Origin: Pseudomonas putida
GTDB taxonomy: Bacteria > Pseudomonadota > Gammaproteobacteria > Pseudomonadales > Pseudomonadaceae
Length of the DNA: 64,000 bases
Reading direction: 5' to 3'
Assembly: GCF_016406145.1 (NCBI RefSeq)
Contig: NZ_CP066306.1
Location: 2,108,001-2,172,000, forward strand
The translations under genes and the position numbers were made by a program. The notes beneath the pieces are model-generated. The model was not told the DNA's origin. It saw nothing but the letters and a program-made list of their open reading frames with translations, and ran no database searches. This document shows, piece by piece, positions 6,022-54,347 of the stretch; within the stretch, counting starts at the first letter, position 1; each line of letters begins with the position of its first letter.

Positions 6022-6031
6022 GGGTTGCGTT

Positions 6032-6250: not shown

Positions 6251-6301
6251 GCTGGCTCCTTGGATATTCGGAGGCAATCAGGGACAGTGTAGATGGCAAA
6301 T

Positions 6302-6320
6302 GGGGCCGCAAAGCGGCCCC
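6302..6320 (-). terminator. metH terminator
   Basis: GGGGCCGC (6302-6309), loop AAA, GCGGCCCC (6313-6320). On the minus strand it sits eight bases past the metH stop and is followed by ATTT. Confidence 0.75.
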
Positions 6321-6327
6321 ATGAATG

Positions 6328-9300
6328 TCAGCTGTCGTAGCCCAGGTTAGGCGCCAGCCAGCGCTCGCTGACGCTCACATCCTGACCTTTGCGTGCGCTG
6401 TAGCTGTCTATCTGGTCCTTGTCGATCTTGCCCACGGCAAAGTACTGCGCCTGTGGGTGAGCAAAGTACCAACCGCTGACCGCAGCCGCGGGGAACATGG
6501 CAAAGTGTTCAGTGAGGAACACGCCGCTGGGGCCGGTTTCACCGATGGCTGTGCCATCGAGCAGGCGGAACAGCGTTTCTTTTTCGGTATGGTCCGGGCA
6601 GGCCGGGTAGCCTGGTGCAGGGCGGATGCCGCTGTACTGTTCCTTGATCAGTGCCTCGTTGTCCAGGTGTTCGTCGCGCGCATAACCCCAGTGCTCTTTA
6701 CGCACCTGCTCGTGCAGCCACTCGGCGCATGCCTCGGCCAGGCGGTCGGCGAGGGCCTTGACCATGATCGAGTTGTAGTCGTCGCCCTTGTCCTGGTAAG
6801 CCTTTGCCACTTCCTCGGCACCAATGCCGGCGGTGGTGATGAAGCCCCCCACGTAGTCGGTGACGCCACTGTCTTTGGGCGCGACGAAGTCGGCCAGGGA
6901 GAGGTTCGGCTTGCCATCGGGCTTGATGGTCTGCTGGCGCAGGTGGTGCAAGGTGGCCAGGGGCTGACCGTTGTCGCCGTAGACCTGAATGTCGTCATCG
7001 GCAACCTGGTTGGCTGGCCAGAAGCCGAACACGGCGCGCGCACTGATCAGCTTCTCGTCGATCAGTTTGTCGAGCATCTCGCGGGCATCCTTGTACAGCG
7101 AGGTTGCCGCTTCACCCACCACTTCATCGGTGAGGATGCGTGGGAATTTGCCGGCCAGGTCCCAGGAAATGAAGAACGGCGTCCAGTCGATGTACTCGGC
7201 CAGGGTGCGCAGGTCGATGTTGTCCAGCACCTTGACGCCTGTGAAGGCAGGGACCGCCGGCTGATAAGCGGCCCAGTCGTATTTTGGCTTGGCCGCCACT
7301 GCCTGCGCGTAGCTCAGGCGCTCGGTGCGGGCACTGCGGTTGGCAGTGCGTTCACGCACTTCGATGTAGTCCAGGCGGGTTTTTTCAACGAAGCCGGGCT
7401 TGAGTTCCTTGGACAGCAACTGGGTGGCCACACCTACCGCGCGGGAGGCGTCGGTTACATAGATCACCGCATCGTTGCTGTACTTGGGCTCGATCTTGAC
7501 TGCGGTATGGGCCTTGGACGTGGTGGCGCCGCCGATCATCAGCGGCAGCTCGAAGCCCTGGCGCTGCATTTCGCGGGCAACATGAACCATCTCGTCCAGC
7601 GACGGGGTGATCAGGCCGGACAAACCGATGATGTCGCACTTCTCGTCGCGGGCGGTCTGCAGGATCTTCTCTGCCGGTACCATCACGCCGAGGTCGACGA
7701 TGTCATAGCCGTTGCAGCCCAGGACCACGCCGACAATGTTCTTGCCGATGTCGTGCACGTCGCCCTTGACCGTCGCCATGAGGATCTTGCCCTTGGCTTC
7801 GGGCTTGTCGCCTTTTTCGGCCTCGATGAACGGGATCAGGTGGGCCACGGCCTGCTTCATCACCCGCGCCGACTTGACCACCTGCGGCAGGAACATCTTG
7901 CCCGCGCCGAACAGGTCGCCAACCACGTTCATGCCGCTCATCAGCGGCCCTTCGATGACTTCGATCGGGCGCGCACATTGCTGGCGGCACTCCTCGGTGT
8001 CTTCGACGATGTGTGCGGTGATGCCTTTGACCAGCGCATGTTCCAGACGCTTGCCGACCGGCAGTGAGCGCCAGGCCTCGTTCTCGACTTCCTTGGTGGC
8101 ACCCCCGCCTTTGTAATCATCGGCGATGGCCAGCAGCGCATCGGTACCTTCAGGGGTGCGGTTGAGCACCACGTCCTCGACCCGCTCGCGCAGCTCGGCC
8201 GGGATCTCGTCGTAGATCTCCAGCTGGCCGGCGTTGACGATACCCATCGTCAGGCCGTTGCGGATGGCGTGGAACAGGAATACCGAGTGGATCGCCTCGC
8301 GCACCGGGTTGTTGCCGCGGAACGAGAACGACACGTTGGACACGCCGCCCGAGCTCAGCGCATGTGGCAGGTGGTCACGGATGTAGGCGCAGGCCTCGAT
8401 GAAGTCCACGGCATAGTTGTTGTGCTCTTCGATGCCGGTAGCGACGGCGAAGATGTTCGGGTCGAAAATGATGTCTTCCGGCGGGAAGCCGACTTCATTG
8501 ACCAGAATGTCGTAGCTGCGCTGGCAGATTTCCTTCTTGCGGGCAGCGGTGTCGGCCTGGCCGACCTCGTCGAAGGCCATCACTACCACGGCCGCGCCGT
8601 AGCGTTTGCACAGGCGTGCGTGGTGCTTGAATTGCTCGACGCCTTCTTTCATGGAGATCGAGTTGACGATGCCCTTGCCCTGGATGCATTTGAGGCCCGC
8701 TTCGATCACTTCCCATTTCGACGAGTCGATCATGATCGGCACGCGAGAGATGTCCGGCTCGCCCGCAATCATGTTGAGGAAACGGACCATGGCTGCCTGG
8801 GAGTCGAGCATCCCTTCGTCCATGTTGATGTCGATTACCTGAGCACCGGCCTCTACCTGCTGCAGGGCGACCTCCAGCGCTTCGGTGTAATTCTCTTCGC
8901 GGATCAGCCGGGCGAACTTGGCGGAGCCGGTGATGTTGGTGCGCTCACCGACGTTGACGAACAGCGACTGGCGATCGATGGTGAACGGTTCCAGGCCCGA
9001 CAGCCGGCAGGCCTTGGCGATCGTTGGAATCTGGCGCGGCTTGTATTTGGCCACTGCCTCGGCGATGGCCTGGATGTGCCCGGGCGTGGTACCGCAGCAA
9101 CCGCCGATGATGTTGAGGAAACCACTGGCCGCGAACTCCTCGACCACTGCAGCCATCTCGGCCGGGGTTTCGTCGTACTCCCCGAAGGCGTTTGGCAGGC
9201 CGGCATTGGGGTGGGCGGAAACGTGGGTGTCGGCCTTGGTCGACAGCTCTTCAAGGTAAGGGCGCAGGTCCTTCGCCCCCAGCGCGCAGTTCAGGCCAAC

Positions 9301-10035
9301 GGAAATCGGCTTGGCATGGCGTACCGAGTTCCAGAACGCTTCGGTGGTCTGGCCGGACAGGGTACGGCCCGAGGCATCGGTGATGGTGCCGGAGATCATG
9401 ATCGGCAGTTCGATGCCGTCATCTTCGAACACCTGCTGCACGGCGAAGATCGCTGCCTTGGCGTTGAGCGTGTCGAAGATGGTCTCGATGAGGATCAGGT
9501 CGGCGCCACCCTCGATCAGGCCGCGGGTCGCCTCGATGTAGTTTTCCACCAGTTCGTCGAAGGTGACGTTGCGGTAGCCGGGGTCGTTGACGTCCGGGGA
9601 AATCGAGCAGGTTCGGCTGGTCGGGCCGAGCACGCCGGCAACGAAGCGTGGCTTGTCCGGCGTTTCCAGGGTCTTGGCGTCGGCAACCTGGCGGGCGATG
9701 CGCGCGCCCTGGACGTTCAGTTCGTAGACGAGCGACTCCATGCCGTAATCGGCCTGGGAAATCTGCGTGGCGTTGAAGGTGTTGGTTTCGAGAATGTCGG
9801 CGCCAGCGTCCAGGTACGCCTTCTCGATGGCAGCGATGACATCGGGGCGGCTAAGCAGCAGCAGGTCGTTGTTACCTTTTACATCGCTTGGCCAATCGGC
9901 GAAGCGCGTGCCACGATAGTCGTGTTCCTCGAGGCGGTAACTCTGGATCATAGTACCCATGCCGCCGTCGAGGATCAGAATGCGCTCATTGAGTGCGTGC
10001 TGGAGTGCTTGGAGACGAGCGCTGCGGTCGGACAT
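6328..10035 (-). CDS. metH: Cobalamin-dependent methionine synthase
   Basis: A 1235-residue enzyme transferring a methyl group from methyltetrahydrofolate to homocysteine through methylcobalamin. All four modules are visible: the homocysteine domain with zinc ligands (VGLNCALGA about 249, IGGCCGTT about 311), the pterin-binding domain ([13 protein letters not shown]), the cobalamin domain with the lower-ligand motif DVHDIGKNI (His near 760), and the C-terminal AdoMet reactivation domain ending near SERWLAPNL. The length is standard. No cobalamin riboswitch is seen in the 170-base leader, but a MetR-like palindrome lies upstream. It is divergent from cti. Confidence 0.97.
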
Positions 10036-10118
10036 AGGAACTACCTGGTCGGGCGAATATCAGAAGGTGCGGAATCATAACAAAGCTGCGCGGTTTTTAG
10101 GCGCATTGGCCATTTGCA

Positions 10119-10131
10119 TGAATTTCGTTCA
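10119..10131. promoter_or_regulatory. Candidate MetR operator upstream of metH
   Basis: TGAATTTCGTTCA matches the MetR consensus TGAA-N5-TTCA recalled from enterobacteria, including the central T/A. The palindrome extends to CATGAA (10117-10122) and TTCATG (10128-10133). It is 84 bases upstream of the metH start and 74 bases upstream of cti. MetR activates metH/metE when homocysteine accumulates. The assignment is by consensus only. Confidence 0.5.
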
Positions 10132-10204
10132 TGTTGCGCCGTGAAGCACCCAAGGTCGACCAGGCAAACGTGATGGCTTTACTAGAACCCAGGACTTTCG
10201 GCAC

Positions 10205-12505
10205 ATGGTGCATCGTTTTCTTGTCGGCGCTTTCGCGCTGCTGCTCAGCAGCGTCGCGCTCGCACAAGCCCCCCAATCGAGCGCGGTAATTTCCTACACG
10301 CGGGATATTCAACCGATTTTCACCGAGAAGTGCGTGGCCTGCCACGCCTGCAACGACGCCGCCTGTCAGCTGAAGCTGGAGAGCCCAGAAGGCGCTGTGC
10401 GTGGTGCAACCAAGATACCGGTCTACCAGGGTGAAAGGAGCAAGGCAGTCCCGACCACGCGGCTTTTCTACGACGCGCACAGCGAAGAGCAGTGGCGCAA
10501 GAAGGGCTTCTATTCGGTGCTCGACGGCCAGGGCAGCCAGGCCGCATTGATGGCACGCATGCTGGAGCTGGGGCACAAGGCGCCGCTTACCCCCAACGCC
10601 AAGCTGCCTGACGATATCGTCTTGGGGCTTGAACGCAACAACATGTGCCCATTGCCCCATGAGTTCGATGCCTATGCCGGCGCTCACCCCAAAGAGGGGA
10701 TGCCACTGGCGGTCACCGGCCTGACCGATAAGGAATACCAGACCCTGCAGGGTTGGCTGGCTGCAGGTGCGCCGGTCGAGTATGAGCCGATTCAACCAAG
10801 CGCGGCCGAGGCAAAACAGATCGCCGAATGGGAAGAACTGCTCAATCGCCCGGGGTCTACGGAGGCCTTGGTAGGGCGCTGGCTTTACGAGCACCTGTTT
10901 CTGGCGCACATCCATTTCGTCGGCGGCGAGCAGGGCCACTTCTTTCAGTGGGTACGTTCGCGCACGCCCAGCGGCCGGCCAGTCGATCTGATTGCCACGC
11001 GCCGCCCTAACGACCCGCCGGGCACCGACTTCTATTACCGATTGATTCCGGTGCAGGGTGTGATCGTGCATAAAACCCACATCACTTACCCGATGGGGCC
11101 GCAAAAGCTCAAGCGCGTGAAGCAGCTGTTCTATGCCGGTGACTGGCACGCCAGCGCGCTGCCGGGCTATGGGCCGCGCCACCGCGCCAACCCGTTCGAA
11201 ACCTTCGAGGCGATCCCGGCGGTGGCGCGCTATCAGTTCATGCTGGATAACGCCGAGTACTTCGTACGTACCTTCATTCGCGGGCCGGTATGCCGTGGGC
11301 AGATCGCTACCGATGTGATTCGCGATAACTTCTGGGCGCTGTTCCAGGAGCCGGCGCACGACCGCTATGTCACCGATGCTGCGTACCGAGGCCAAGCCAC
11401 ACCGTTGCTCGCCATGCCGGGCCAGATCGATGACGTGGGCAGTGTGCTCAGCCTGTGGCATGCCTACCGTGACAAGCGCAACGAGTATGAAAAGTTGCGT
11501 CGTGAGGCCTACGCCGAAATGCCGGCGCCGGGCTGGTCGACCCTGTGGGCCGGCAACGACAATGCGCTGCTTAGCATCTTCCGCCACTTCGACAGCGCTG
11601 CGGTGACCAAGGGCCTGGTCGGCGATGTGCCACTGACTGTGTGGCTGTTCGACTACCCGCTGCTCGAACGTACCTATTACCAGCTGGCGGTCAATTTCGA
11701 TGTATTCGGCAATGTCTCGCACCAGTTGCAGACGCGGCTGTACTTCGACCTGATCCGCAATGGTGCCGAGGTCAACTTCCTGCGCCTGATGCCAGCGGAC
11801 CAGCGTGGCGCAATTCTCAGCGACTGGTACCAGAACAGTGGCAAGGTGAAGATGTGGCTCGACTATGAAGACATCGACAGCGACACGCCAAGCGGTATCA
11901 GGCTCGACCCCCGCGATCCCAAGCGCGACTTCGGTCTCAAGCTGCTGCAGCGCACCGGCAGCCTGAATGCAGCGCCTGATCCGATCAACCGATGCCAGGG
12001 CGCCTATTGCTCGCGGCCGCAGATGAATGAACAATTCCGTAACGTCGAGCAGTCGCTCAGCCGCCTGGTATCTCGCCCGGCCGCAGGCCTAAAGGTGATC
12101 AATCAATTACCCGAAGCCACAATGTTGCGCATCGAAGGGCAGGGCGGCCAGCGTCAGGTCTACAGCCTGCTGCGCAACCGTGCGCACAGCAATGTCGCGT
12201 TCCTGCTGGGCGAGGCTGCGCGCTACCAGCCGGGGCTCGATACCCTGACCTTGTACCCCGGGGTGCTCAGCAGTTACCCGAACTTCATCTTCAATATCCC
12301 GGCGGCGGATGTGCCGGAGTTCGTCGAAGACATGGAGTACGCGCGCGACGATGCCGCCAAGTTCGAGCGCATCGTCATGCGTTGGGGCGTGCGCCGCAGC
12401 CACCCGCAGTTCTGGCGTTACTTCCATGACCTGAACACCTTCATCAAGGAAACCCAGCCGTTGGAGGCCGGGGTGCTGGACATGAACCGCTACGAGAACC
12501 TCTGA
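10205..12505 (+). CDS. cti: Fatty acid cis/trans isomerase
   Basis: A 766-residue periplasmic heme protein that converts cis to trans unsaturated fatty acids in membrane phospholipids, stiffening the membrane under solvent or heat stress; a known trait of P. putida and relatives. A signal peptide ends near VALAQA. The c-type heme motif CVACH is at residues 43-47, inside the conserved EKCVACHACNDAACQ segment. The length agrees with known Cti proteins. It appears monocistronic, divergent from metH, with a hairpin downstream. Cti activity is thought to be controlled largely after translation. Confidence 0.95.
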   Translation: MVHRFLVGAFALLLSSVALAQAPQSSAVISYTRDIQPIFTEKCVACHACNDAACQLKLESPEGAVRGATKIPVYQGERSKAVPTTRLFYDAHSEEQWRKKGFYSVLDGQGSQAALMARMLELGHKAPLTPNAKLPDDIVLGLERNNMCPLPHEFDAYAGAHPKEGMPLAVTGLTDKEYQTLQGWLAAGAPVEYEPIQPSAAEAKQIAEWEELLNRPGSTEALVGRWLYEHLFLAHIHFVGGEQGHFFQWVRSRTPSGRPVDLIATRRPNDPPGTDFYYRLIPVQGVIVHKTHITYPMGPQKLKRVKQLFYAGDWHASALPGYGPRHRANPFETFEAIPAVARYQFMLDNAEYFVRTFIRGPVCRGQIATDVIRDNFWALFQEPAHDRYVTDAAYRGQATPLLAMPGQIDDVGSVLSLWHAYRDKRNEYEKLRREAYAEMPAPGWSTLWAGNDNALLSIFRHFDSAAVTKGLVGDVPLTVWLFDYPLLERTYYQLAVNFDVFGNVSHQLQTRLYFDLIRNGAEVNFLRLMPADQRGAILSDWYQNSGKVKMWLDYEDIDSDTPSGIRLDPRDPKRDFGLKLLQRTGSLNAAPDPINRCQGAYCSRPQMNEQFRNVEQSLSRLVSRPAAGLKVINQLPEATMLRIEGQGGQRQVYSLLRNRAHSNVAFLLGEAARYQPGLDTLTLYPGVLSSYPNFIFNIPAADVPEFVEDMEYARDDAAKFERIVMRWGVRRSHPQFWRYFHDLNTFIKETQPLEAGVLDMNRYENL

Positions 12506-12558
12506 TCGGTTGCGCTGACCTTTCCGGCACACCTGCGGTCGGAGAGGTTGGGTGGTCC

Positions 12559-12577
12559 GGGGCTGCCAGGCAGCCCC
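12559..12577 (+). terminator. cti downstream hairpin
   Basis: GGGGCTG (12559-12565) and CAGCCCC (12571-12577) around CCAGG, 54 bases past the cti stop. No strong T tract. Confidence 0.5.
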
Positions 12578-12617
12578 ACTGTGGCCTCAATGCACCAAGG
12601 CAATCGCAGGGTGATCC

Positions 12618-13652
12618 ATGCTGTATTCGCTTCAGGCACTGCGGGCGTTCGCCGCCTGGGTGGTGGTCTGCCACCATTTCATGCAGATCTTTTTCGACTT
12701 CCATGCCACTGGCCCCGTTGGCCAGTTGCTCACTGACCGCGGCGCCGTGGGCGTCGACATCTTCTTCGTCATCAGCGGGCTGGTGATCTACCTTTCGACC
12801 CGAGACAAGCCCGTGGAGCCGCGTCGGTTCCTGCTCAACCGCGCGTTACGAATCATCCCTGCCTATTGGTTCTACACCGTGCTGATGGCGCTACTGCTAC
12901 TGGCCTTCAGCCAATGGATGCCACACCAGGCATTCACCTGGCATCACCTGTTGCTGTCGATGCTGTTTATTCCGGCAGAGAACCCGGGTGGCTACGGCCT
13001 GTACCCGACCTTGAACGTGGGCTGGACGCTGAACTTCGAGATGTTCTTCTACCTGTTGTTTGGCCTGGCATTCCTTGTCCGGCAACGCCACCAGTTGTTG
13101 CTGGTGACCGCTGCGCTGGTGCTGGTCAGCGAAGTGCTGGGCCGCCTTGGCGTGCTCAGCCGCTTCTACAACAACGGCATCATCTACGAATTCTTGCTCG
13201 GTATCGGCATCGGTGTGCTGTACCGCCGCGGCCTGGTGCGCGAAGGGCTGTGGTTGCCGCTGGCGGTGCTGGGTGTGGCGTGCTACGCGATCTACCACCT
13301 GGACGCGTCCCAGCGCTTGTTGCATTGGGGCCTTCCCAGCGCACTGATAGTGTTGGCGTTTGTAGCACTTGAGCGGTACTTCCAGGGCAACCGGGTGCTC
13401 AAGGCATTGGGGGACTGCTCGTACTCGGTGTACCTGATCCACGTACTGGTACTGTACGCGGGCTGGTTCGCCAGCCAGCGCCTGCACTTGAATCCCTACC
13501 TGGTCTTTGCTCTGTGCGTGCCGTCCATTGGACTAATGTCGTGGTTCAGCTACCAGTGGCTGGAGCGGGGCCTGTACCGGCGGATGCAGGCGTGGCTGGC
13601 GGCACCGCGGGAGCAAACGCCGGCGTTTGCTCTTTCCCGAGTCAAATGCTAG
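12618..13652 (+). CDS. Acyltransferase 3 family membrane protein
   Basis: A 344-residue polytopic membrane acyltransferase (Acyl_transf_3/OafA type) with about ten helices. The family N terminus MLYSLQALRAFAAWVVVCHHF carries the paired histidines, followed by GAVGVDIFFVISG and the RFLLNRALRIIPAYWF arginine motif. Such enzymes move acyl groups from cytoplasmic donors to sugars or envelope polymers. No polysaccharide genes adjoin, so the acceptor is unknown. A strong hairpin overlaps the last codons. Confidence 0.9.
   Translation: MLYSLQALRAFAAWVVVCHHFMQIFFDFHATGPVGQLLTDRGAVGVDIFFVISGLVIYLSTRDKPVEPRRFLLNRALRIIPAYWFYTVLMALLLLAFSQWMPHQAFTWHHLLLSMLFIPAENPGGYGLYPTLNVGWTLNFEMFFYLLFGLAFLVRQRHQLLLVTAALVLVSEVLGRLGVLSRFYNNGIIYEFLLGIGIGVLYRRGLVREGLWLPLAVLGVACYAIYHLDASQRLLHWGLPSALIVLAFVALERYFQGNRVLKALGDCSYSVYLIHVLVLYAGWFASQRLHLNPYLVFALCVPSIGLMSWFSYQWLERGLYRRMQAWLAAPREQTPAFALSRVKC
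13611..13632 (+). terminator. Perfect palindrome overlapping the acyltransferase 3' end
   Basis: A 22-base perfect palindrome with arms GAGCAAACG and CGTTTGCTC around CCGG, followed by TTTCCC. It lies inside the last codons (REQTPAFAL) of the acyltransferase, 20 bases before its stop, and could terminate transcription ahead of nfuA. Confidence 0.5.
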
Positions 13653-45054: not shown

Positions 45055-45555
45055 ATGCCCGACTGGACCTTCCAATCACCCGGCCGTGACGCCATCGATG
45101 AAGTCGTTGCCTTCGTCGACAGTGCGCGACGCGAGCTGTTCCCCATGCTCGCCCATTCGCCTTTGCCCAAGGACCTGGCCCATTTCGAGGCGACCTACCT
45201 TGATGGCGACGGACACTTTCTGGAAGCCCGTGATCGTGGCACGTTGATCGCCGTCATTGGCTACCTGCCCTATGACCATCGCTTCCGCCAACTCGATTAC
45301 CACGGCAAACGCGTCGTCGAAATCGTGCGCCTGTTCGTGCTCCCCGAATACCGCCGCAACGGCCTGGCCGCGGCACTGTTCCAGGCCTTGCGAGAGCACG
45401 CCGTCCGCGCAGGTATTGAATGTCTGTACCTGCACACCCATCCGTTTCTGGCAGGGGCGATCCGGTTCTGGGAGCGGCAGGGCTTCACGGTGATCAACGT
45501 AGAGGATGACCCGGTGTGGCGGACTACGCACATGGAACAGTTGCAGGCGGTTTAG
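45055..45555 (+). CDS. GNAT-family N-acetyltransferase
   Basis: A 166-residue acetyltransferase. The start MPDWTFQSPG at 45055 is chosen because the frame continues far upstream without family similarity. The acetyl-CoA loop is RLFVLPEYRRNGLAAALF (R-x-x-G/A form), followed by HPFLAGAIRFWERQGF. Substrate unknown; monocistronic. Confidence 0.88.
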   Translation: MPDWTFQSPGRDAIDEVVAFVDSARRELFPMLAHSPLPKDLAHFEATYLDGDGHFLEARDRGTLIAVIGYLPYDHRFRQLDYHGKRVVEIVRLFVLPEYRRNGLAAALFQALREHAVRAGIECLYLHTHPFLAGAIRFWERQGFTVINVEDDPVWRTTHMEQLQAV

Positions 45556-45641
45556 GATCTTTCCTGCTTTGCAGTGACGAGGGTGGATACCGGGAACGGC
45601 AAGGGCATCATCAATGCGGCGCACAAGGAGGATGAAACCAC

Positions 45642-46979
45642 TCAGAGCCCGCCCGACAGCGGCCACTCCACTGCCAGGCGGATCTGGTTGCCGTCCAGTT
45701 CGGCCTGCGCCGTATCCCCGCGGTGCACATTGTGCCTCAATGAAAACGCCGTGCCCTTGGCCTTGCCACTCTGCACCACATACCGCGCCTCAAGGTCTCT
45801 CTCCCAGTGCTTGCCACCCTTGCCATAGCCCAGGTACGCATACCCGCCGTTGGGGTCCACGTGCGTGCCATCGATATCGAACCCGCGCACATACAGTGCC
45901 GTCAGGTTCAACCCCGGCACCCCAAAAGCACCCATGTTCAGGTCATAGCGCGCTTGCCAGGACTTTTCGTTGGGTGCGTTGAAGTCAGACATCTGCACGG
46001 CGTTGGCAATGTAGATAGCGCCGCGGGTCACGTAGTCGAACGGCGTGTTGCCATCCACCTGCTGCCAGCCCAGGCTGAAAGCATGTGGGCCATGGCTATA
46101 GCGCGAAACCAGGCTCCAGGTGGTGTTGTCGATGCGCCCGGACAGCGCTTTGCCGGTGTCGGTGGTGCGGTACAGGTTGAGGTCCAGGCTCAGGCTGCGC
46201 CGGTCATCCAGCGCATGGGTGAGGGTGCTGCCCAGGTAATGCTGGTTCCAGGTGTCTTCATAGCGGGAGGTGTACAGGCTGGCGCCCAAGGCAGCACTGG
46301 GGTTCCACACCGCACCGGCAACGTCGAAGCTGTTGCCCTGGCGACCGTTGGAGTAATTCACGACGAAGCCCTGGTCATGGCTTGAAGCGTTGCGGTCGGT
46401 GCTTTCGTTGAAGTGGCCGGCAATCAGCTTGACCTTGTCGATTTCATTGCTGGTAAGAAAGAACCCGGTGGCGGTTTCGGGTAGCAAGCGGCTGTCGGAA
46501 GAGCTGAATACCGGCGTTTTCACCCGCTGCTCGCCATAAGACAGCACGGTGTTGGAGACGCGCAGCTTTAATGCCGCACCGCCCCGGCTGTATTCGTTCT
46601 TGGGGTGGCCCTGGTTGTCCACACCCAGTAAGCGGGCCTTGCCGGTTCGACCCCCACCGCTGTCGAGTTGTACACCAAGGTAGGCATGGGCATCGATGCC
46701 AACACCGATCAGGCCTTGGGTAAAACCGGACTGGAATGTACCCATCAAACCGTAGGCCCATTCCTCGGCCAGGCCATTGCGTTCGTTGCGGGGTTTGTAG
46801 GCATTACGGCCGGCACTGTTGCGCCCGCCATGCTTGTAATCACGCTGGTCGTAGACCGTGCGGTTGAGGATGCTCCAGCTGCTGTCTTCGACCAAGCCGT
46901 TGCTCTGCGACTGTGCGGATTCAGCCAGCGCCAAGGGCGCCAGGCCCAGTAGTGGCAGGGCAAGAAGCAAACGGTTCAT
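45642..46979 (-). CDS. OprD-family outer membrane porin
   Basis: A 445-residue outer-membrane channel with signal peptide ending near ALAESA. OprD features are GLVEDSSWSILNRTVYDQRDY, GVGIDAHAYLGVQLD, the repeated beta strands and a C-terminal IRLAVEWPLSGGL. OprD proteins admit amino acids or small organic acids. It overlaps the pseudoazurin stop by four bases, placing it as the last of five genes behind a cobalamin riboswitch. A role in nutrient or metal-chelate entry is inference. Confidence 0.92.
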   Translation of the reverse strand: MNRLLLALPLLGLAPLALAESAQSQSNGLVEDSSWSILNRTVYDQRDYKHGGRNSAGRNAYKPRNERNGLAEEWAYGLMGTFQSGFTQGLIGVGIDAHAYLGVQLDSGGGRTGKARLLGVDNQGHPKNEYSRGGAALKLRVSNTVLSYGEQRVKTPVFSSSDSRLLPETATGFFLTSNEIDKVKLIAGHFNESTDRNASSHDQGFVVNYSNGRQGNSFDVAGAVWNPSAALGASLYTSRYEDTWNQHYLGSTLTHALDDRRSLSLDLNLYRTTDTGKALSGRIDNTTWSLVSRYSHGPHAFSLGWQQVDGNTPFDYVTRGAIYIANAVQMSDFNAPNEKSWQARYDLNMGAFGVPGLNLTALYVRGFDIDGTHVDPNGGYAYLGYGKGGKHWERDLEARYVVQSGKAKGTAFSLRHNVHRGDTAQAELDGNQIRLAVEWPLSGGL

Positions 46980-47410
46980 TGGCCGGCCTCCAACTGCTGC
47001 AGTTGGGCTGCCAGGCGCGTACGTGCCCGCGCAGGCAAATCCGCTGGCAATTCGGTCAAGCCGGTATCGCCCACCTGGATCAGCATCACCATACCCATGG
47101 CCAGGTGTGGGATGCACTGGACTCCGTACACCCCTGGCACCGTAAAGGACTGCTCGAAGGGCTGGTTCAGCTTGCTCTTGAACGCCTCGGCACCTGCCGG
47201 CAGCAACCCGGGCAGGCTGGCCGCGTTGTGGCCGCTCTGGGTCGGCACGAAGCGTACCGTATCACCCGGTGCAATACGCAGGTGGTCGGGCTCATAGACC
47301 ATGGCACCGGCCGCGCCGCGGGTGAGCATCTTCACTTCGTGCACGTCGGCCAGCGCGGCGAAAGGTAGCAGAGCGTTGGCGATCAGCAGGACGGTAGTGC
47401 GCAACAGCAT
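46976..47410 (-). CDS. Pseudoazurin-type cupredoxin
   Basis: A 144-residue periplasmic blue copper protein with signal peptide ending near AALADV. Family signatures are HEVKMLTRGAAGAMVYEP and the copper ligands: His in QSGHN, and C-x-x-H-x4-M in GVQCIPHLAMGM (Cys, His, and the second Met as axial ligand). Pseudoazurins carry electrons to nitrite reductases or cytochromes. Here no denitrification gene is near; it starts 16 bases after the ABC ATPase stop. Confidence 0.9.
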   Translation of the reverse strand: MLLRTTVLLIANALLPFAALADVHEVKMLTRGAAGAMVYEPDHLRIAPGDTVRFVPTQSGHNAASLPGLLPAGAEAFKSKLNQPFEQSFTVPGVYGVQCIPHLAMGMVMLIQVGDTGLTELPADLPARARTRLAAQLQQLEAGQ

Positions 47411-47426
47411 CCGGGAGCTTCCTGGT

Positions 47427-48215
47427 TCAGGGGGCGCGAAAGCGCAGGATGCGCGCGCCGTCGAAGGGGTCGGTGAGGTAGTGGGCATGGACGCCAAAGG
47501 TGCTCAGCAAACGCTCGGGGGTGAGTACCTCCAGCGGCTTGCCGAGGGCGACCAGACGGCCGTGTTCGAGCACCGCCACGCGGTCGCAGGTCAGCGCCTG
47601 GTTAAGGTCGTGCAGGGCCACCAGGGTGGTCACCGGCAACGCCTGTACCTGTTGCAGCAGGCTCAACTGGTGCTGGATGTCGAGATGATTGGTTGGCTCA
47701 TCGAGCAGCAGTACCTGCGGGCGCTGGGCCAGAGCGCGGGCAATGTGGACGCGCTGGCGTTCGCCACCGGACAGCGAACTCCAGATGCGAGTACGCAGGT
47801 GCGAGGCATCGAGGTCGGCCAGGGCCTGTTCGACGACCGCGCGATCTTCCTGGGAAAACGGCGCCAGGGCTGACAACCAAGGGGTACGCCCTAGCGCCAC
47901 GGCGTCGAACACGCTGATGGCGTCGAGGGTGTCGGCCTGTTGCTCGACCAGCGCCAAGGCCTGGGCGATGCGCCGACGCGGCAGGCGCGCAAGCGGCTCG
48001 CCGAGCAATTGCACACTGCCGCTATGCGGCGTGCGCAGCCCGGCCAGCAGTTTGAGCAGGGACGATTTGCCGGAACCATTCGGGCCGACGATGCCGAGTG
48101 TTTCACCCGCGGCGACCGTCAGGTTGATATCGCGCAGCACGGGGTTGCCCGACAGTTGCAAACTCAAGCCTTGGCAGGCGAGCGGGGCGACCTTTGGGGG
48201 TGTCATGGCCGTCAT
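47427..48215 (-). CDS. FecE/BtuD-type ABC ATPase
   Basis: A 262-residue ATPase. Walker A is GPNGSGKSS, signature SSLSGGERQRVHIARAL, Walker B LLLDEPTNHLD and H-loop ALHDLNQAL. Members serve siderophore, heme and cobalamin importers. The start MTAMTPPK at 48215 overlaps the permease stop by four bases. The riboswitch upstream favours a corrinoid or cobalt compound over iron. Confidence 0.93.
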   Translation of the reverse strand: MTAMTPPKVAPLACQGLSLQLSGNPVLRDINLTVAAGETLGIVGPNGSGKSSLLKLLAGLRTPHSGSVQLLGEPLARLPRRRIAQALALVEQQADTLDAISVFDAVALGRTPWLSALAPFSQEDRAVVEQALADLDASHLRTRIWSSLSGGERQRVHIARALAQRPQVLLLDEPTNHLDIQHQLSLLQQVQALPVTTLVALHDLNQALTCDRVAVLEHGRLVALGKPLEVLTPERLLSTFGVHAHYLTDPFDGARILRFRAP

Positions 48216-49228
48216 GCGCGCCCCCTGCGGCTGACCAGGATCAACGCAAACACAGGTGCGCCGATCAGCGCTGTGACCACGCCCACCGGAATCACCTGGC
48301 CGGGGATCAGCGTGCGGGAAAGCATGTCCGCGGCGATCAGGAACAGCGCTCCGCCCAGGGCACTGGCCGGCAGCAGGCGGCTGTGACCGGGGCCGAGCAA
48401 CAGCCGCAGCGCATGGGGGATCACCAGCCCGACAAAACCGATGGCGCCGACGATCGACACCATCACCGCCGTCACCAGCGCTGCGCAGCTGATCAGCAGC
48501 AACTGGCTGCGCCGCACCGCGATGCCCAGCGACGCCGCCGAATCGGTGCCGAAGGTAAAAGCGTCGAGTGTGCGCCGGTGCCACAGGCACACCACCAGCC
48601 CGAACAGTGCCACTGGCAGCGCCAGCCATACTGACGGCCAGCGCACGCCACTGAGGTTGCCCAGCAGCCAGAACAGGATGCCGCGAGCCTGTTCGGCGGT
48701 GGCTGATTTGGTGATCAGAAACGCCGTCAGGGCGTTGAACAGTTGCGAGCCGGCAATCCCTGCCAGGATCACTTGGGCATTGTTGTTGCTCGGGCCGGCT
48801 GCGCGGGCCAGCACCAGGACCAGGGCGAAGGCCGCGACGGCGCCGACGAAGGCGCCGCCCGACATGCTCAGGGCAACGCTGCCCAGGCCCAGCAGGCCCA
48901 CCAGCACGGCGCCGGTCGAAGCCCCGGCTGACAGGCCCAGCAAGTAGGGTTCGGCCAGCGGATTGCGCAGCAGCGCCTGCAGGATCACCCCGCAGGTCGC
49001 CAGCCCTGCGCCACAGGCTGCGGCGACCAGCGTGCGGGTCAGGCGGTAGTTCCAGACGATACCGGCGTCGATCGGGTCGACCGGGTAACCGGCCTGCCAC
49101 AGGTGGTTGGCCAGTACCTGGTACACCACGCTGGGTGACACGGTGGTCTCGCCAATGGCAGTGCCGGCAAGCAGCGCGCCGAGCAAGGCAACCAGGGCCA
49201 GGGCACAGTAAGGCAGCATACGGTTCAT
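48212..49228 (-). CDS. FecCD/BtuC-type ABC permease
   Basis: A 338-residue permease with about ten helices. Family motifs are RLTRTLVAAACGAGLATCGVILQALLRNPLAEPYLLG (opening LRNPLAEPYLLG) and IGFVGLVIPHALRLLLG near the C terminus. ATG 49228 shares one base with the stop of the binding-protein gene. Part of the riboswitch-led operon. Confidence 0.93.
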   Translation of the reverse strand: MNRMLPYCALALVALLGALLAGTAIGETTVSPSVVYQVLANHLWQAGYPVDPIDAGIVWNYRLTRTLVAAACGAGLATCGVILQALLRNPLAEPYLLGLSAGASTGAVLVGLLGLGSVALSMSGGAFVGAVAAFALVLVLARAAGPSNNNAQVILAGIAGSQLFNALTAFLITKSATAEQARGILFWLLGNLSGVRWPSVWLALPVALFGLVVCLWHRRTLDAFTFGTDSAASLGIAVRRSQLLLISCAALVTAVMVSIVGAIGFVGLVIPHALRLLLGPGHSRLLPASALGGALFLIAADMLSRTLIPGQVIPVGVVTALIGAPVFALILVSRRGRA

Positions 49229-50238
49229 CACGGTGCAGCTTTACCGCTGGCGAAGGCTGCCGACAGGGTCTGCAGGCCCTGGAACAGACGGATACCGGCC
49301 TGCATGGCATCGGCGTCGAGGATGATGATGCGGTTGTTCTTCACGGCATCCATGTGCTGGGTTACCGGGTCGTTGCGCAGGAATTCGAGCTTCTTCTGGT
49401 AGTCGTCGGCCGGAAAGCGGCGGCGATCCATGCGGGCGATGATCAGCCACGTAGGGTTGGCCTTGGCGATGGTTTCCCAGCCCACCGTGGGCCATTCTTC
49501 GGTGGACTCGACCACGTTGCGTACACCCAGGGTGCGCAGCATGAAGTCCGCCACGCCCTGGCGACCCGCAACATAAGGGTCGATGTCGAGGTCGGCGCTA
49601 GAGAACCAGAACAGTGCCGAGGTCTGGCTCAGGTCTTTGCCGGCCAGTTGTTGCCTGGCGCTGTCCAGGCGTGCCTTGAGGTCGCTGTTCAGTGCCGCGC
49701 CGCGGTCCTGGACGTCGAAGATTTCCGCCAGCTGGCTGACGCTCTTGTAGATGCTCTGGACCTGAAATGCCTGCAGTCGCGTGCCATCGGCCCCCACCAG
49801 GTTGTCCTTGCCTTCGCAGTCCGAGGGCAGCAGATAGGTGGGGATCTTCAGTTCGTTGAACTGCTCACGGGTCGCGACCACGCCCTGGGCGCCGACCATC
49901 CACTCAAACTGCACCGCCACAAGTTCGGGGCGCTTGCCCACCACCGCTTCGAAGCTCGGGTCGTTGTCGGCCAGGCGCGGCACCTTGTCGTTCTGCGCCT
50001 TGTACTCGGGCAAGACGTTGTTGAACCACAGCGATGTGCCGGCCAGTTTGTCGCCCAACCCCAGCGCGTAGAGGATTTCGGTGCCGGCCTGGCCGATGGT
50101 CACTGCACGCTCGGGGGCGTGGGTGAAGGTTTGCGGCATGCCGCAGTTGTCCACGGTCAGCGGGTAGTGCGTGGCGGCGGCCTGTGCCGCACCGGTGAGG
50201 CTCAAGCCGACGAGCAGGGTGGCGAAACGGGACAGCAT
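49228..50238 (-). CDS. Periplasmic binding protein of the riboswitch-led importer
   Basis: A 336-residue type III binding protein (FepB/BtuF class) with signal peptide ending near AQAAAT. Blocks include RAVTIGQAGTEILYALGLGDKLAG, FEAVVGKRPELVAVQ and NNRIIILDADAM. AGGAG precedes the ATG at 50238. It is the first gene behind a cobalamin riboswitch and heads five overlapping genes. By similarity alone it would be called an iron-chelate binding protein; the leader argues for corrinoid or cobalt-chelate uptake. Confidence 0.9.
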   Translation of the reverse strand: MLSRFATLLVGLSLTGAAQAAATHYPLTVDNCGMPQTFTHAPERAVTIGQAGTEILYALGLGDKLAGTSLWFNNVLPEYKAQNDKVPRLADNDPSFEAVVGKRPELVAVQFEWMVGAQGVVATREQFNELKIPTYLLPSDCEGKDNLVGADGTRLQAFQVQSIYKSVSQLAEIFDVQDRGAALNSDLKARLDSARQQLAGKDLSQTSALFWFSSADLDIDPYVAGRQGVADFMLRTLGVRNVVESTEEWPTVGWETIAKANPTWLIIARMDRRRFPADDYQKKLEFLRNDPVTQHMDAVKNNRIIILDADAMQAGIRLFQGLQTLSAAFASGKAAP

Positions 50239-50357
50239 GCAGGGCGATCTCCTATCAGACAGTTCACGGAAGGAACGCACGGACAGGCATCGCCGAGCCC
50301 CTGCAGGCGACAGGGGCAACTCTGATGGCCAATCCCGGACACCCCGCCGGTTGGTGA

Positions 50358-50530
50358 ATGTAAGCCGGCAGGTCTCCTGACTGGTGCGTCATCACCCGGC
50401 TCCAGCCTTCCCGGATCGGCTGATCCAGTGGCATCGATGGAGCGGGCTCGGCACTTACAGTTGCGGGGGCAGTTCCGTTTGGCGCGCCTGGGCGGCCTGG
50501 GATTCCCTATTATTTCCGTGGTGGAAACCG
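50358..50530 (-). ncRNA. Cobalamin riboswitch ahead of the ABC/pseudoazurin/OprD operon
   Basis: Read on the minus strand, the conserved cobalamin aptamer elements occur in order: AATAATAGGGAATCC, the core CTGCCCCCGCAACTGT (near 50455-50472), the B12-box form GCCACTGG (near 50424-50431) and AGGAGACCTGCCGGC (near 50364-50378). The expression platform is the 120 bases before the binding-protein ATG and holds CCCCTG/CAGGGG, which could control ribosome access. Limits are approximate. Confidence 0.9.
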
Positions 50531-50575
50531 GCGGCCCGCATGGTAGACCATCAGGCAGCCGGTGAAAACGCTAAA

Positions 50576-51742
50576 TCAGAAGTACTTCAGCCAGGTGATG
50601 TCGCGTCGGCGCGCCTTGAGCCTGGCAAACCAGCGCACCGGCAGGTACAGCGCCACGGCAAGCAGCACAGCACCCAGCCACACAGCGCCAATGCCGTCGA
50701 AACCGAAGTAGTCGCCGTGATTGCGGCCGAACAGGGCGACGCTGGCCAGGTACATCAGTTTCAGCACATAAAGGTGCAGCAGATAGAAGAACATCGGCGC
50801 CGCGCCGAACACCGCCAGAGCGCCGATCCAGCGGGCTTGCCCTGCGCGTTCAAAGGCGCGCAGCAACAGCAGGCCGCAGCCCAGGGTCAAGGCCAGGAAC
50901 AACAGTGAAGGCGGGTACTTGGTGATGTTGAAGAAACTCATCACGGTCTGGGTAAGCGTCGGGTAGCCGCTCCACGGCGCTTCGCCGTAGCCATTGAGCA
51001 TGCGCAGCGCCATGAAGCCGAGCAGGGCGATTAGCCCTGCCAGCAGCAGCCGATACTGACGCTGGCCGGCATCGCTGCCACGGGCGAACCAAGGGCCCAG
51101 GCCGTAGCCCAAGGCAATTACGCCGATCCACGGCAGTACCGGGTAGGAGGTGCGCAGGCGCAGGCTTTCAGAGAGTTCCAGCCAGCCACGGTCGTGCAGG
51201 ATCGCCCACGGCACATGCATCGCCGACTCCGTGCCAAAGTGCAGGCCGTCGAGCAGGTTGTGGCCGGCGATGATCACTGCGCCCAGCACAACCAGCACCG
51301 GGCGCGGCAGCCACACCAGCAGCGACAGGGCGATCATGCTGACCCCGATGGCCCAGATCACCTGCAGGTAGATGACGCTGGGCGGCAGCTGGAACGTCCA
51401 GGCGAAATTCACCAAGGTGAACTCCAGCACAACCAGGAACAGGCCGCGCTTGAACAGGAACGCCGAGACATCGCTGCGGCCCTGATACTTCTCGCCGTAC
51501 AGCCAGGCTGACAGGCCAGTGAGCAGTACGAACACTGGTGCACACAGGTGGGCCAGGGTGCGGCTGAAGAACAGGGACGGGTCGGTGGCGTCGATGCTCA
51601 TCGGGTCGCTGACCTGGCGGTGCAGGAAGAATGTCTCGCGCACGTGGTCAAGCAGCATGAACAGGATCACCAGGCCGCGCAGGGCATCGATGCTCTGCAG
51701 GCGCTGGGTGAGCTGGGTGGGGGTGGCGGCGGCACTTGTCAT
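50576..51742 (-). CDS. Polytopic membrane protein, DUF1624/heparan N-acetyltransferase-like
   Basis: A 388-residue protein with about ten helices. The N-terminal SIDALRGLVILFMLLDHVRETFF, with Arg and the His-bearing helix, and the later SYPVLPWIGVIALGYGLG fit the DUF1624 group of acyltransferase-like membrane proteins. The ATG at 51742 is followed by a TSAAATPTQL lead. A Zur-type palindrome lies 38 bases upstream, so zinc shortage may switch it on. It stands between two riboswitch units in the same direction. Confidence 0.8.
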   Translation of the reverse strand: MTSAAATPTQLTQRLQSIDALRGLVILFMLLDHVRETFFLHRQVSDPMSIDATDPSLFFSRTLAHLCAPVFVLLTGLSAWLYGEKYQGRSDVSAFLFKRGLFLVVLEFTLVNFAWTFQLPPSVIYLQVIWAIGVSMIALSLLVWLPRPVLVVLGAVIIAGHNLLDGLHFGTESAMHVPWAILHDRGWLELSESLRLRTSYPVLPWIGVIALGYGLGPWFARGSDAGQRQYRLLLAGLIALLGFMALRMLNGYGEAPWSGYPTLTQTVMSFFNITKYPPSLLFLALTLGCGLLLLRAFERAGQARWIGALAVFGAAPMFFYLLHLYVLKLMYLASVALFGRNHGDYFGFDGIGAVWLGAVLLAVALYLPVRWFARLKARRRDITWLKYF

Positions 51743-51779
51743 GGAGGGGTCGCAGGCAGGAATGGATGTCAAATGAAAC

Positions 51780-51855: not shown

Positions 51856-53982
51856 TCAGAAGCTGTGATCCACTGTCGCGAAATACGACCGCGGCGTGCC
51901 CATGATCCATTGCGTGCCACTGAACGCCGAAGCCACATATTCCCGGTCAAACAGGTTGTTTATCTGCAGCCCCAGGCGCACATCCGGCAACAGCTGCCAG
52001 CCGATGTTGGCATCGACCACGGTATAGCCCGGCGCACGCTGAGTGTTGGCCGTATTGGCATAGCGGTCGTCCACGTACCGTGCGCCAATGCCGGCCTCCA
52101 CTTGCTGACCGAAGCCCTTGGTCAGCCACAGGTTGGCAGTACGCCGTGGCACGTTGGACGGGCGATTGCCGGCGCGATCCTGTGTTACACCAGCCACCAT
52201 TTCGTCGAACTCATCGTACTTTGCGCGCACCAGTGACGCATTGGCTGAGACCTGCCACTGCTGCGGCAAGGCCAGCTCAAGGCTCGCCTCCAGGCCATCG
52301 GAGGTTTGTTGCCCAGCCTGCTGTTTTTCATGGGTGATAGGGTCATCCACCAGCAGCTTTTTCTTGACGATGTGATAGGCCGCCAGCGTCCATTCACCAC
52401 GGCCTTCCCAGAAGCGCTGCTTCAGGCCCAGCTCGGTCTGCTTGGACTCGGTGAGGTCGTAGTTCAGTTGCGCAGGATTGAGGCTGATCAGGTCGTTCAC
52501 CCCGTCCTCGCTGGTGGAGTACTGGCCGTACAGCGATAGGTCGTCACTGACGGCGAACACCAGCCCTGCGCGCCAGTTGCCACCTTGCAGGCTACGGTCG
52601 CTGCGCGTGCCGTCGGTGAGGTTGTTGCGGTCAATGTGGTTCTGGTCGCGACGCACGCCGGTCACCAGCGACAGGCGATCGGTCAGCTGCAGGCGGTTTT
52701 CGGCGAACAGAGCGAAGGTGTGGGTCGTGGACAAGGTTTGCGGTCGCAGGGGCGAAGCACTGTGGAACCAGCCCGGGGCTGGTTGCCACGGGTCGATGTA
52801 GTCGCCGCCCACATCGTTGTACGGCGAGTTGCTGTCAACGTTGAAGCGCACCTTATTGTACTCGGCGCCAACCATCGTCCTGCTGGCAAGCCCGAACAAC
52901 GCATGGTCGAAGGTGAACGTCTGGCGATCGCCTATCTGCTCCTGATCATGCTTGATCTGCAGGTAGCTCTGGCGCAGCAGCTGTTGGCGGTCGGCGTCCC
53001 AGCTGTAATCCTCGGCATTGCGCCAATGCCGGCGGCTCTTGATGTAGTACAGCTGGTTGCTGGCACTGAGCTGGTCACTGATAGCCCAGTCAGTGGTGAA
53101 GCGGGTCCATTCGTCATGGTAGCGCTGCACGTCATTCTGAATGTTGTAGTTCTTCTTGCGCAGGCTGCTGCGGTAGTGGCCGTCGATCAGCGGCGTACCG
53201 TAGTAATTGGCGGGCTCGGCGTCGCCGCGCTCGTGGGCCAGGGTAAAGCTCAGGTCGTCAGTGGCATCGAATTGCAGTGCGGCACTCAGGGCAAGGCTGC
53301 GCGAGTTGGTGCGGTCGACCCAGCCATTGCCAGCCTGCTGGTCAAGGGTCAGGCGGTAACTCAGGCGCTTGCTGAGGCTGCCACCGCTGTCCAGGCTCAG
53401 TTGCTGGCGATCCCAGGAGCCATAGCCAAGGCGCAGGTGGTTGTGAATGTCGCCGGTGAACGGCTTTTTCGGGATGACGTTGATCACCGCGCCGGTGGCG
53501 CCTTCACCATACAGTACCGAGGCCGGGCCCCGGATCACATCGATGCGCTCTACCATCCACGGGTCGACTGGAAAGGTCTGGGTGCCGGCCCCGGTATACA
53601 AGCGTGCGCCGTCGAACAGGGTCATCACTGAACCGTGCCCGGTAAAGCCGCGCGCCGAAAGGCCGGTGCCGCCATCGCCTGGGCTGCCGATGAAGGTGAT
53701 GCCCGGCGAGCGGGTCACGGCCTCCTGCACGGTGAGGTTGTTGCGCTGCTGGATCTGTTCGGCGGTGATGCTCGTGGTGCTGGCCGGGGTTTCCAGGGTG
53801 CTGAGGTTCAGGCGTGAACCGGCCTGGGTCGGCGTGGCGAGGTCGACCTTCTGCTCAGCGCGGGTGTCGGTGATGGCTGTGGATGGCAGCGCCACCGCAG
53901 GGTTGTCGTGGTCATCGGCCAGGGCCGGCAGGGCGACGGCCAGGCAGGCTGCCAGAGGGTGAAGCTTGAAGAAACGGGACAT
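51856..53982 (-). CDS. TonB-dependent outer membrane receptor under cobalamin riboswitch
   Basis: A 708-residue receptor. The ATG at 53982 has GGAAAG upstream and opens a signal peptide ending near PALADD. The plug has TSITAEQIQQRNNLTVQEAVTRSPG and VERIDVIRGPASVLYGEGATGAVINVI; the barrel ends in the aromatic SYFATVDHSF. By sequence it resembles ferric-siderophore receptors. Its 5' leader, however, is a cobalamin riboswitch, so corrinoids or a cobalt chelate are the better guess for the ligand. Probably the outer-membrane partner of the ABC importer at 47427-50238. Confidence 0.93.
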   Translation of the reverse strand: MSRFFKLHPLAACLAVALPALADDHDNPAVALPSTAITDTRAEQKVDLATPTQAGSRLNLSTLETPASTTSITAEQIQQRNNLTVQEAVTRSPGITFIGSPGDGGTGLSARGFTGHGSVMTLFDGARLYTGAGTQTFPVDPWMVERIDVIRGPASVLYGEGATGAVINVIPKKPFTGDIHNHLRLGYGSWDRQQLSLDSGGSLSKRLSYRLTLDQQAGNGWVDRTNSRSLALSAALQFDATDDLSFTLAHERGDAEPANYYGTPLIDGHYRSSLRKKNYNIQNDVQRYHDEWTRFTTDWAISDQLSASNQLYYIKSRRHWRNAEDYSWDADRQQLLRQSYLQIKHDQEQIGDRQTFTFDHALFGLASRTMVGAEYNKVRFNVDSNSPYNDVGGDYIDPWQPAPGWFHSASPLRPQTLSTTHTFALFAENRLQLTDRLSLVTGVRRDQNHIDRNNLTDGTRSDRSLQGGNWRAGLVFAVSDDLSLYGQYSTSEDGVNDLISLNPAQLNYDLTESKQTELGLKQRFWEGRGEWTLAAYHIVKKKLLVDDPITHEKQQAGQQTSDGLEASLELALPQQWQVSANASLVRAKYDEFDEMVAGVTQDRAGNRPSNVPRRTANLWLTKGFGQQVEAGIGARYVDDRYANTANTQRAPGYTVVDANIGWQLLPDVRLGLQINNLFDREYVASAFSGTQWIMGTPRSYFATVDHSF

Positions 53983-54107
53983 GTCTTTCCACTGCTGCAG
54001 GAATGAATGGATCCCGGTGGAAAACACGCAAAGGCACAACCACCACGGGCGCAGGCGCGCACGCGGATACCGGCCTGCGCCCGCCCACCGCGGGTTGCCA
54101 AGTGAAG

Positions 54108-54285
54108 CTTCAGGCCGGTCTCCGGGCTTGCGAGGGTCATGAGGCCTTCACCTTCCCATGCGTGTGCACAGTGGTGTGTCGAAGGCTTCGCTCGCTTACC
54201 GTTGCGGGGGCAGCGCCGGACTTGTCGTGAACCAAGACGCACCGGCTTCCCGTTTCACCCTGCGCGCGGCGGCGCAGGACACCTG
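54108..54285 (-). ncRNA. Cobalamin riboswitch ahead of the TonB receptor
   Basis: On the minus strand the aptamer elements are AAACGGGAAGCCGGTG (near 54239-54254), the core CTGCCCCCGCAACGGTAAGC (near 54194-54213), CCACTGTGC (near 54166-54174) and GCCCGGAGACCGGCC (near 54113-54127). About 125 bases separate it from the receptor start. It fills most of the 365-base gene-free stretch. Confidence 0.93.
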
Positions 54286-54347
54286 AAACTGGCGCGCATA
54301 TGACCATTGGTCGGAATGCGCGTCAACCATTTACCTGCTGCTGATGC

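Follow-up and report, generated by a model that had tools for sequence, protein, structure and literature searches.

Cobalt has to be taken into the cell against copper, nickel, zinc and iron. A described system for this purpose is CbtJKL of Sinorhizobium meliloti, a Co(II) importer encoded on pSymB under an adenosylcobalamin riboswitch (excerpts of PMC7689651); it is also called a cobalt transporter on pSymB in excerpts of PMC12239276 and PMC4207669, and the original work is that of Cheng et al. 2011, as known from these three papers. Here we analyse a stretch of 64,000 nucleotides of Pseudomonas putida (contig NZ_CP066306.1, positions 2,108,001 to 2,172,000; hereafter the window, whose coordinates are used throughout), in a host genome of 5.85 Mb whose nearest named loci are those of the P. 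putida group. It contains a five-gene operon, headed by a cobalamin riboswitch, for a substrate-binding protein (SBP), a FecCD-family permease, an ATP-binding cassette (ABC) ATPase, a pseudoazurin and an OprD-family porin. The operon is probably a riboswitch-controlled cobalt importer of the CbtJKL type, with a dedicated pseudoazurin and an OprD channel as additions. The riboswitch, the importer family, the pseudoazurin and OprD are each known; the new part is their stable union. Among the open-licence PMC papers listed by our searches, none was found to describe a link between the last two and a cobalamin-riboswitch importer, which older regulon papers or supplements may hold; the main text of PMC3766115 contains neither 'azurin' nor 'porin'.

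Organisation of the operon

In a scan with Rfam gathering thresholds, RF00174 was the only family matched in the window, at two places. One of them heads the operon, which reads as follows:

50350-50547, minus strand: cobalamin riboswitch aptamer heading the five-gene operon (RF00174, 110.4 bits, E 9e-27, gathering threshold 31.5)
49228-50238, minus strand: SBP, CbtJ-like (PF01497, 154.8 bits)
48212-49231, minus strand: FecCD-family permease, CbtK-like (PF01032, 281.3 bits)
47427-48215, minus strand: ABC ATPase, CbtL-like (PF00005, 127 bits)
46976-47410, minus strand: pseudoazurin (TIGR02375, 123.3 bits, cut-off 109.85)
45642-46979, minus strand: OprD-family outer-membrane porin (PF03573, 452.7 bits, gathering cut-off 25)

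The riboswitch match is full length (model positions 1-189 of 189) and confirms the aptamer that a first-pass annotation had placed at about 50358-50530. The family matches agree with the gene order given there, but the interval assigned to the five genes (46976-50530) left out OprD. The tight spacing it described also holds: with the start codons that we chose (all ATG), successive genes overlap by 4, 4 and 4 bases, and a gap of 16 bases separates ATPase and pseudoazurin. A consensus scan of 45500-50700 found no promoter-like site (shuffled sequences averaged 0.8) and two terminator-like sites on the minus strand, both within the permease gene. Between ATPase and OprD there is neither, in keeping with the claim that no terminator interrupts the run, although such scans are weak evidence.

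The closest characterised relatives of the ABC genes that we found are those of CbtJKL, with identities between the window and pSymB of 49% (SBP), 66% (permease) and 55% (ATPase); the kinship is taken from identity, without a tree. Both loci have a cobalamin riboswitch (116.3 bits for RF00174 on pSymB) and the order SBP, FecCD permease, ATPase. The pSymB set is the only place in its record with such an SBP, and this protein shares 80 of the 90 positions conserved across 84 SBPs.

Recurrence of the gene set

We examined the best 80 of 97 loci with relatives of the pseudoazurin, one genome per species, comprising 53 from Pseudomonas and 27 others. A record counted with the former is named Pantoea sp. 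Ap-967 (L188); its locus is P. putida-like and the name is probably wrong. Riboswitches were sought with a covariance model trained on 18 examples from Pseudomonas, so that some of the Pseudomonas loci are from training genomes; no locus from outside the genus was used in training. A riboswitch was found upstream of the SBP gene in 71 loci (23 of the 27 outside Pseudomonas) and an SBP gene upstream of the pseudoazurin in 74. The whole set of riboswitch, SBP, permease, ATPase and pseudoazurin is present in 64 of the 80 loci, including 18 of the 27. Outside Pseudomonas it occurs in Alphaproteobacteria (among them Sulfitobacter, Paracoccus, Microvirga and Roseomonas) and in Betaproteobacteria (Thauera, Lautropia, Comamonas and Diaphorobacter). 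In 41 of the 64 loci a gene for OprD lies at most 2.6 kb downstream, including those of Thauera linaloolentis, Comamonas and Diaphorobacter, with a gene of the major facilitator superfamily (MFS) intervening in some Pseudomonas. The presence of a pseudoazurin and an OprD porin in a cobalamin-riboswitch unit, to which the first-pass annotation had drawn attention, is therefore no local accident.

Among the 16 loci without the whole set, three are at a contig end or cut by one (L224, L247, L265) and two lack a full upstream riboswitch (L243, L266). In seven of the 80 loci, SBP and pseudoazurin occur with no permease or ATPase gene between them (L201, L225 and, in Halomonas/Vreelandella, L253, L255, L256, L262 and L263); the five Halomonas/Vreelandella loci consist of riboswitch, SBP and pseudoazurin, followed in two of them by a second SBP and a permease. 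These seven loci give a hint that the pseudoazurin may work with the SBP. Plasmids also carry the module: those of Comamonas antarctica, Diaphorobacter, Roseomonas marmotae, Paracoccus ferrooxidans and Thioclava have the pseudoazurin in the same position, and all five have the riboswitch. On three further plasmids, from Pseudosulfitobacter, S. meliloti and Shinella, riboswitch and importer are present but no pseudoazurin accompanies them, the Shinella stretch stopping at the ATPase.

Other pseudoazurin loci served as controls. The riboswitch model matched none of 20 other class-level loci, nor the Eit region of Escherichia coli, at E values up to 1. A phylum-wide search of 398 genomes returned 37 places besides the window, of which 36, in 35 loci, were examined, the 37th being already among the class-level loci. 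A riboswitch was found in one of the 35 (L298), downstream of the pseudoazurin, and a CbtJ-like SBP upstream in none. Because nearly all control loci are without it, the riboswitch is tied to one pseudoazurin clade and not to pseudoazurin as such.

The neighbourhood of the module varies. Tandem SBP genes precede a single permease-ATPase-pseudoazurin set in L233 and L261, and in L233 (Sulfitobacter) each SBP has its own riboswitch. An MFS gene lies between pseudoazurin and OprD in the Pseudomonas straminea group (L235:8481-9689, L238, L240, L228) and upstream of the riboswitch in Thauera (L234:3516-4754, L244:3478-4710). The two MFS proteins tested have a weak, MdtH-like match below the cut-off, and such a protein could export a chelator or a metal. 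In several Alphaproteobacteria, including the cobalt operon of S. meliloti, a methyltransferase gene follows the ATPase or the pseudoazurin. These genes are at:

L270, 7885-8679: methyltransferase gene
L271, 9281-10063: methyltransferase gene
L233, 8408-9184: methyltransferase gene
L258, 8449-9120: methyltransferase gene
L261, 8446-9126: methyltransferase gene
L268, 9206-9985: methyltransferase gene, convergent

In the window, a GNAT acetyltransferase gene (45076-45555, plus strand) adjoins the module on the opposite strand. It recurs in L254, L269, L274 and L214 (annotated in L269 and L274, elsewhere judged by eye), and the two proteins tested had no match in NCBIfam at E values of 1e-20 or below.

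The pseudoazurin clade

The window pseudoazurin exceeds the equivalog cut-off of TIGR02375 and has a signal-peptide-like start; PADLOC returned no match for it. The His-Cys-His-Met ligands of type-1 copper are kept, by motif match, in all 81 module pseudoazurins (the window and the 80 loci). This start and these ligands, together with what is known of the family, make it most likely that the protein is a redox-active copper protein of the periplasm. In a quick tree, built without the canonical denitrification pseudoazurins of Alpha- and Betaproteobacteria, the 81 form one clade apart from 29 class-level others, with a support of 99. Pairwise distances of pseudoazurins and SBPs are correlated (r 0.87 over 68 loci), a value that species history alone would also raise.

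All 81 have MGMVM where a canonical pseudoazurin (PDB 1bqk) has MGMVG, which places a Met two residues past the axial Met; the phylum-level others mostly have Ala or Gly at this position. We rejected the motif as an exclusive mark of the clade: it is absent from the 29 class-level others and present in one of 35 phylum-level others (L278), which makes it a trend, not a rule. The L278 pseudoazurin is beside genes that by eye resemble nirK and norBC (region 3047-7819), outside any importer operon.

Distribution within Pseudomonas

We found pseudoazurin matches in 18 of 149 Pseudomonas genomes, at an identity of at least 64% in 16. The remaining two (G040 and G101, 36-37% identity) were excluded from the 16 and from the locus map, and no importer genes were seen in the table of open reading frames at their loci (L042 and L043). 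The SBP is present in 69 of the 149 genomes; 68 of its loci were mapped, the 69th (G076) being on a broken contig. Fifteen of the 16 pseudoazurins are within the SBP gene run and the 16th, in L224, adjoins the ATPase gene on a broken contig. A match to the riboswitch model is found at the SBP in 60 of the 63 mapped loci with an SBP identity of at least 63%: 15 of 15 with a pseudoazurin and 45 of 48 without. Two of these 45, probably remnants, are short matches that run into the start of the SBP (L091 with 46.9 bits and L093 with 26.9). No riboswitch was found upstream of the five SBPs at 42-50% identity.

Substrate of the importer and alternative explanations

Upstream of the operon are three further features that bear on what it carries:

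54096-54301, minus strand: second cobalamin riboswitch, upstream of the TonB receptor (RF00174, 116.9 bits)
51856-53982, minus strand: TonB-dependent receptor of the siderophore-receptor type (TIGR01783, 299.1 bits, cut-off 223.5)
50576-51772, minus strand: HGSNAT-like membrane protein, between receptor and operon (PF07786, 59.4 bits)

On the minus strand the order of transcription is thus second riboswitch, TonB receptor, HGSNAT-like gene, riboswitch 50350-50547, SBP, permease, ATPase, pseudoazurin and OprD. Absent from the first-pass annotation are the second riboswitch, the receptor and the HGSNAT-like gene, the last of which is a frequent neighbour in Pseudomonas and the next gene upstream in many loci.

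The same annotation proposed that the cupredoxin may act on an imported corrinoid. The importer would then be a functional BtuFCD, the TonB receptor would bring the corrinoid in, and the pseudoazurin would change the redox state or the axial ligand of its cobalt. A cobalamin riboswitch on the operon and an adjoining receptor with its own riboswitch fit this. So do the other riboswitches of the host genome, which has five RF00174 matches in all: the remaining three adjoin, by eye, genes resembling cob or cbt, one about 300 bases before the cobalt permease CbtA, and none was seen at another FecCD importer. However, the proteins fall short of the NCBIfam equivalog cut-offs of BtuF, BtuC and BtuD (24.0 of 234, 203.5 of 334 and 131.7 of 281 bits), and the nearest characterised kin of the ABC genes is a cobalt importer. 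The receptor reaches 104.9 of the 599.7 bits required by the B12-receptor (BtuB) model TIGR01779, and a better candidate, also below the cut-off, is encoded elsewhere in the genome (473 bits). OprD channels pass small solutes and would be too narrow for corrinoids. The hosts themselves also argue against the corrinoid, as the B12-synthesis gene cbiC/cobH is present in 25 of the 27 outside Pseudomonas, some of them drafts or metagenome-assembled genomes, and in five of five Pseudomonas tested. This rate has no baseline from genomes of these groups to set it against, a caveat that is the first of several points weighing against the cobalt assignment.

The others are as follows. The name cbtJKL for the pSymB set rests on replicon, riboswitch, family and the sole SBP match in the record. 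CbtJ, being BtuF-like, was at first taken for part of a cobalamin transporter (excerpts of PMC7689651); cobalt and corrinoid importers are thus hard to tell apart by sequence alone. NCBIfam models of a putative F420-0 transporter score highest for permease and ATPase, below their cut-offs (295.5 of 437.35 and 282.3 of 372.4 bits). A larger complex would be a suitable cargo for the neighbouring TonB receptor. All 69 Pseudomonas genomes with the SBP encode CbtA (130 of 149 overall), which also speaks for the corrinoid; together with its position behind a riboswitch of its own in the host genome, this means that cobalt is already served. The dedicated role of the two added proteins is also open to objection. 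Pseudoazurin is missing from 48 of the 63 orthologous Pseudomonas SBP loci, and eight of these 48 keep OprD adjoining the ATPase; both are therefore optional, dispensable additions to the importer. Finally, four of the 80 loci (L222, L223, L231 and L242) consist of HGSNAT-like gene, pseudoazurin and OprD, without riboswitch or CbtJKL-like genes, and in three of them a more distant FecCD importer is encoded about 5-6 kb upstream.

On balance, we clearly favour cobalt or a small cobalt complex as the substrate and regard a corrinoid importer as unlikely. The corrinoid part of the earlier proposal has thus lost ground, whereas action of the cupredoxin on the imported metal stays as the leading guess, with cobalt in the place of the corrinoid.

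Two ideas about the hosts were discarded. The module is not a replacement for CbtA, since CbtA occurs in every SBP-bearing genome. Nor are the Lautropia hosts B12 auxotrophs, as the absence of CobN from all five might have suggested: cobJ passes its cut-off in four of the five and CbiC in all five. Across the 27 hosts outside Pseudomonas, cobJ is above its cut-off in 23 and CobN in 21. In several loci, cobalamin-synthesis genes are encoded at most 8 kb from the module: cobW, cobB, cobO and a chelatase-like gene in L263, cobF and a cobM just below its cut-off in L234, cobO in L244, and an annotated cobW-cobN in L269. They are also found near the importer of Pseudosulfitobacter, where there is no pseudoazurin.

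More improbable than the corrinoid importer is an Eit-type importer of iron or siderophores, which would stand under a cobalamin riboswitch incidentally and whose pseudoazurin would aid the redox chemistry of iron. Such help is known from the ferrous iron system FtrABCD, which has a cupredoxin-like partner. Among the NCBIfam matches, EitA is the best for the SBP and EitC the second best for the ATPase, both far below the cut-offs (279.7 of 640 and 259.7 of 485 bits). In Actinobacillus pleuropneumoniae, an operon with a pseudoazurin is annotated as an iron importer and its protein rises under iron starvation, but the transcripts of the operon fell while the proteins rose (excerpts of PMC12507848). 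Against this reading stand the riboswitch in 71 of the 80 loci and the Eit region of E. coli, which has no RF00174 match and whose SBP agrees at 61 of the 90 conserved positions, compared with 80 for that of pSymB. This E. coli region is on a plasmid (L276) and holds an Eit-like operon whose ABC genes belong to the same family, with an MFS gene; given the 61 of 90 positions, it is worth re-examining whether the iron system it is usually labelled as is what it encodes.

Slightly less probable again is that pseudoazurin and OprD are passengers that came to be transcribed with the importer by chance and travelled with it, with no task in common. The many importer loci that have neither, and the four that keep both without the importer, speak for this. 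Yet in seven of the 80 loci the pseudoazurin stays behind the SBP although no permease and ATPase genes separate the two, the arrangement persists in Alpha-, Beta- and Gammaproteobacteria, and a different type of FecCD importer also has pseudoazurins next to it. The four loci that keep both genes are natural losses and could show what the remainder does.

The least credible explanation is that the pseudoazurin feeds denitrification enzymes such as nitrous oxide (N2O) reductase, sharing the operon because N2O damages B12 and both respond to its loss: pseudoazurin is a denitrification carrier, N2O switches on B12-riboswitch genes in Paracoccus (excerpts of PMC5987163) and the L278 protein has denitrification-like neighbours, but the module pseudoazurins are separate from the 29 class members in the tree described above, and TIGR04244 found N2O reductase in none of the 16 pseudoazurin-bearing Pseudomonas, a search in which no control genome passed the cut-off and other denitrification enzymes were not included. 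N2O reductase is thus probably not the partner of the pseudoazurin in the hosts tested, on a negative that is weakly anchored.

Proposed mechanism and outer-membrane partners

We return to the cobalt importer extended by pseudoazurin and OprD. When coenzyme B12 is scarce, the riboswitch would permit the five genes to be made. OprD, plus the TonB receptor where present, would pass cobalt or a small cobalt complex across the outer membrane, and SBP, permease and ATPase would bring the cobalt into the cell, for use by the cobalamin pathway. The pseudoazurin would act in the periplasm, beside the SBP. Our leading guess at its task, a tentative one, is that it passes electrons to or from cobalt to give the exchangeable Co(II) state. 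With somewhat less likelihood, it could bind copper so that this stronger-binding metal stays out of the cobalt SBP; a task of some other sort seems about as likely as that, and it is doubtful that the protein carries the metal itself.

No cobalt-specific outer-membrane receptor had been confirmed as of a 2021 review, to judge from excerpts of it (PMC7689651). The receptor under its own cobalamin riboswitch is a candidate receptor for a cobalt complex; its closest PDB sequence is 9rvq, named only as a TonB-dependent receptor, followed by CntO/FoxA. Here riboswitch control links a cobalt-type importer with a porin, a TonB receptor and a periplasmic protein, which opens the passage of cobalt for B12 through outer membrane and periplasm to tests by simple gene deletion. 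The operon also offers a function for pseudoazurin in bacteria in which N2O reductase was not found (none of 16).

Pseudoazurins with other FecCD importers

Outside the module, a pseudoazurin directly follows a more distant FecCD permease and ATPase, with SBPs of other kinds, in four of the 35 phylum-level loci (L298, L308, L309 and L311). The same is seen behind a FecCD permease and ATPase in one of the 20 class-level loci (L167), and the Thauera locus L244 has a second FecCD-pseudoazurin set (8516-13411). No cobalamin riboswitch was found at L308 or L311. The MFS gene after the pseudoazurin of L309 resembles, by eye, that of the P. straminea group. With pseudoazurins at the end of other FecCD operons too, the association could be a general one. 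It is conceivable, if short of an even chance, that FecCD metal importers in general have a secreted cupredoxin as their partner in the periplasm: in the cobalt branch, the pseudoazurin clade, with OprD as the cobalt channel, would give metal specificity by redox chemistry or exclusion of copper, and other pseudoazurins would do likewise for another metal complex in another branch. If this is true, blue copper proteins would gain a new role beyond respiration.

Comparison with known systems

The A. pleuropneumoniae operon (APPSER1_09785-09810), which its authors call putatively iron-transport-associated, shares the order SBP, permease, ATPase and pseudoazurin with the window; a second SBP follows the pseudoazurin, as in L308, to which it is likened by gene order alone (excerpts of PMC12507848). 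The canonical pseudoazurin 1bqk, a denitrification electron carrier, is of the same family as the window protein and shares its copper ligands. The latter is encoded within a metal-importer operon and has Ser and Gln at two places, close to the first His and preceding the Cys, where 1bqk has lysines; the Lys before the Cys is retained in many module pseudoazurins of Alpha- and Betaproteobacteria. The best PDB sequence matches of the porin are OprD (2odj) and then the histidine porin OpdC (3sy9), with which it shares the family over most of its length, but its gene is in a cobalamin-riboswitch operon. The BtuFCD importer of B12 has in common with the operon the transporter superfamily and the kind of riboswitch regulon, and differs from it by the equivalog scores given above. 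Lastly, the CbtJKL locus of S. meliloti, for which cobalt transport is known and to which the operon is likened from its genes, has a methyltransferase gene after the ATPase and neither pseudoazurin nor OprD there.

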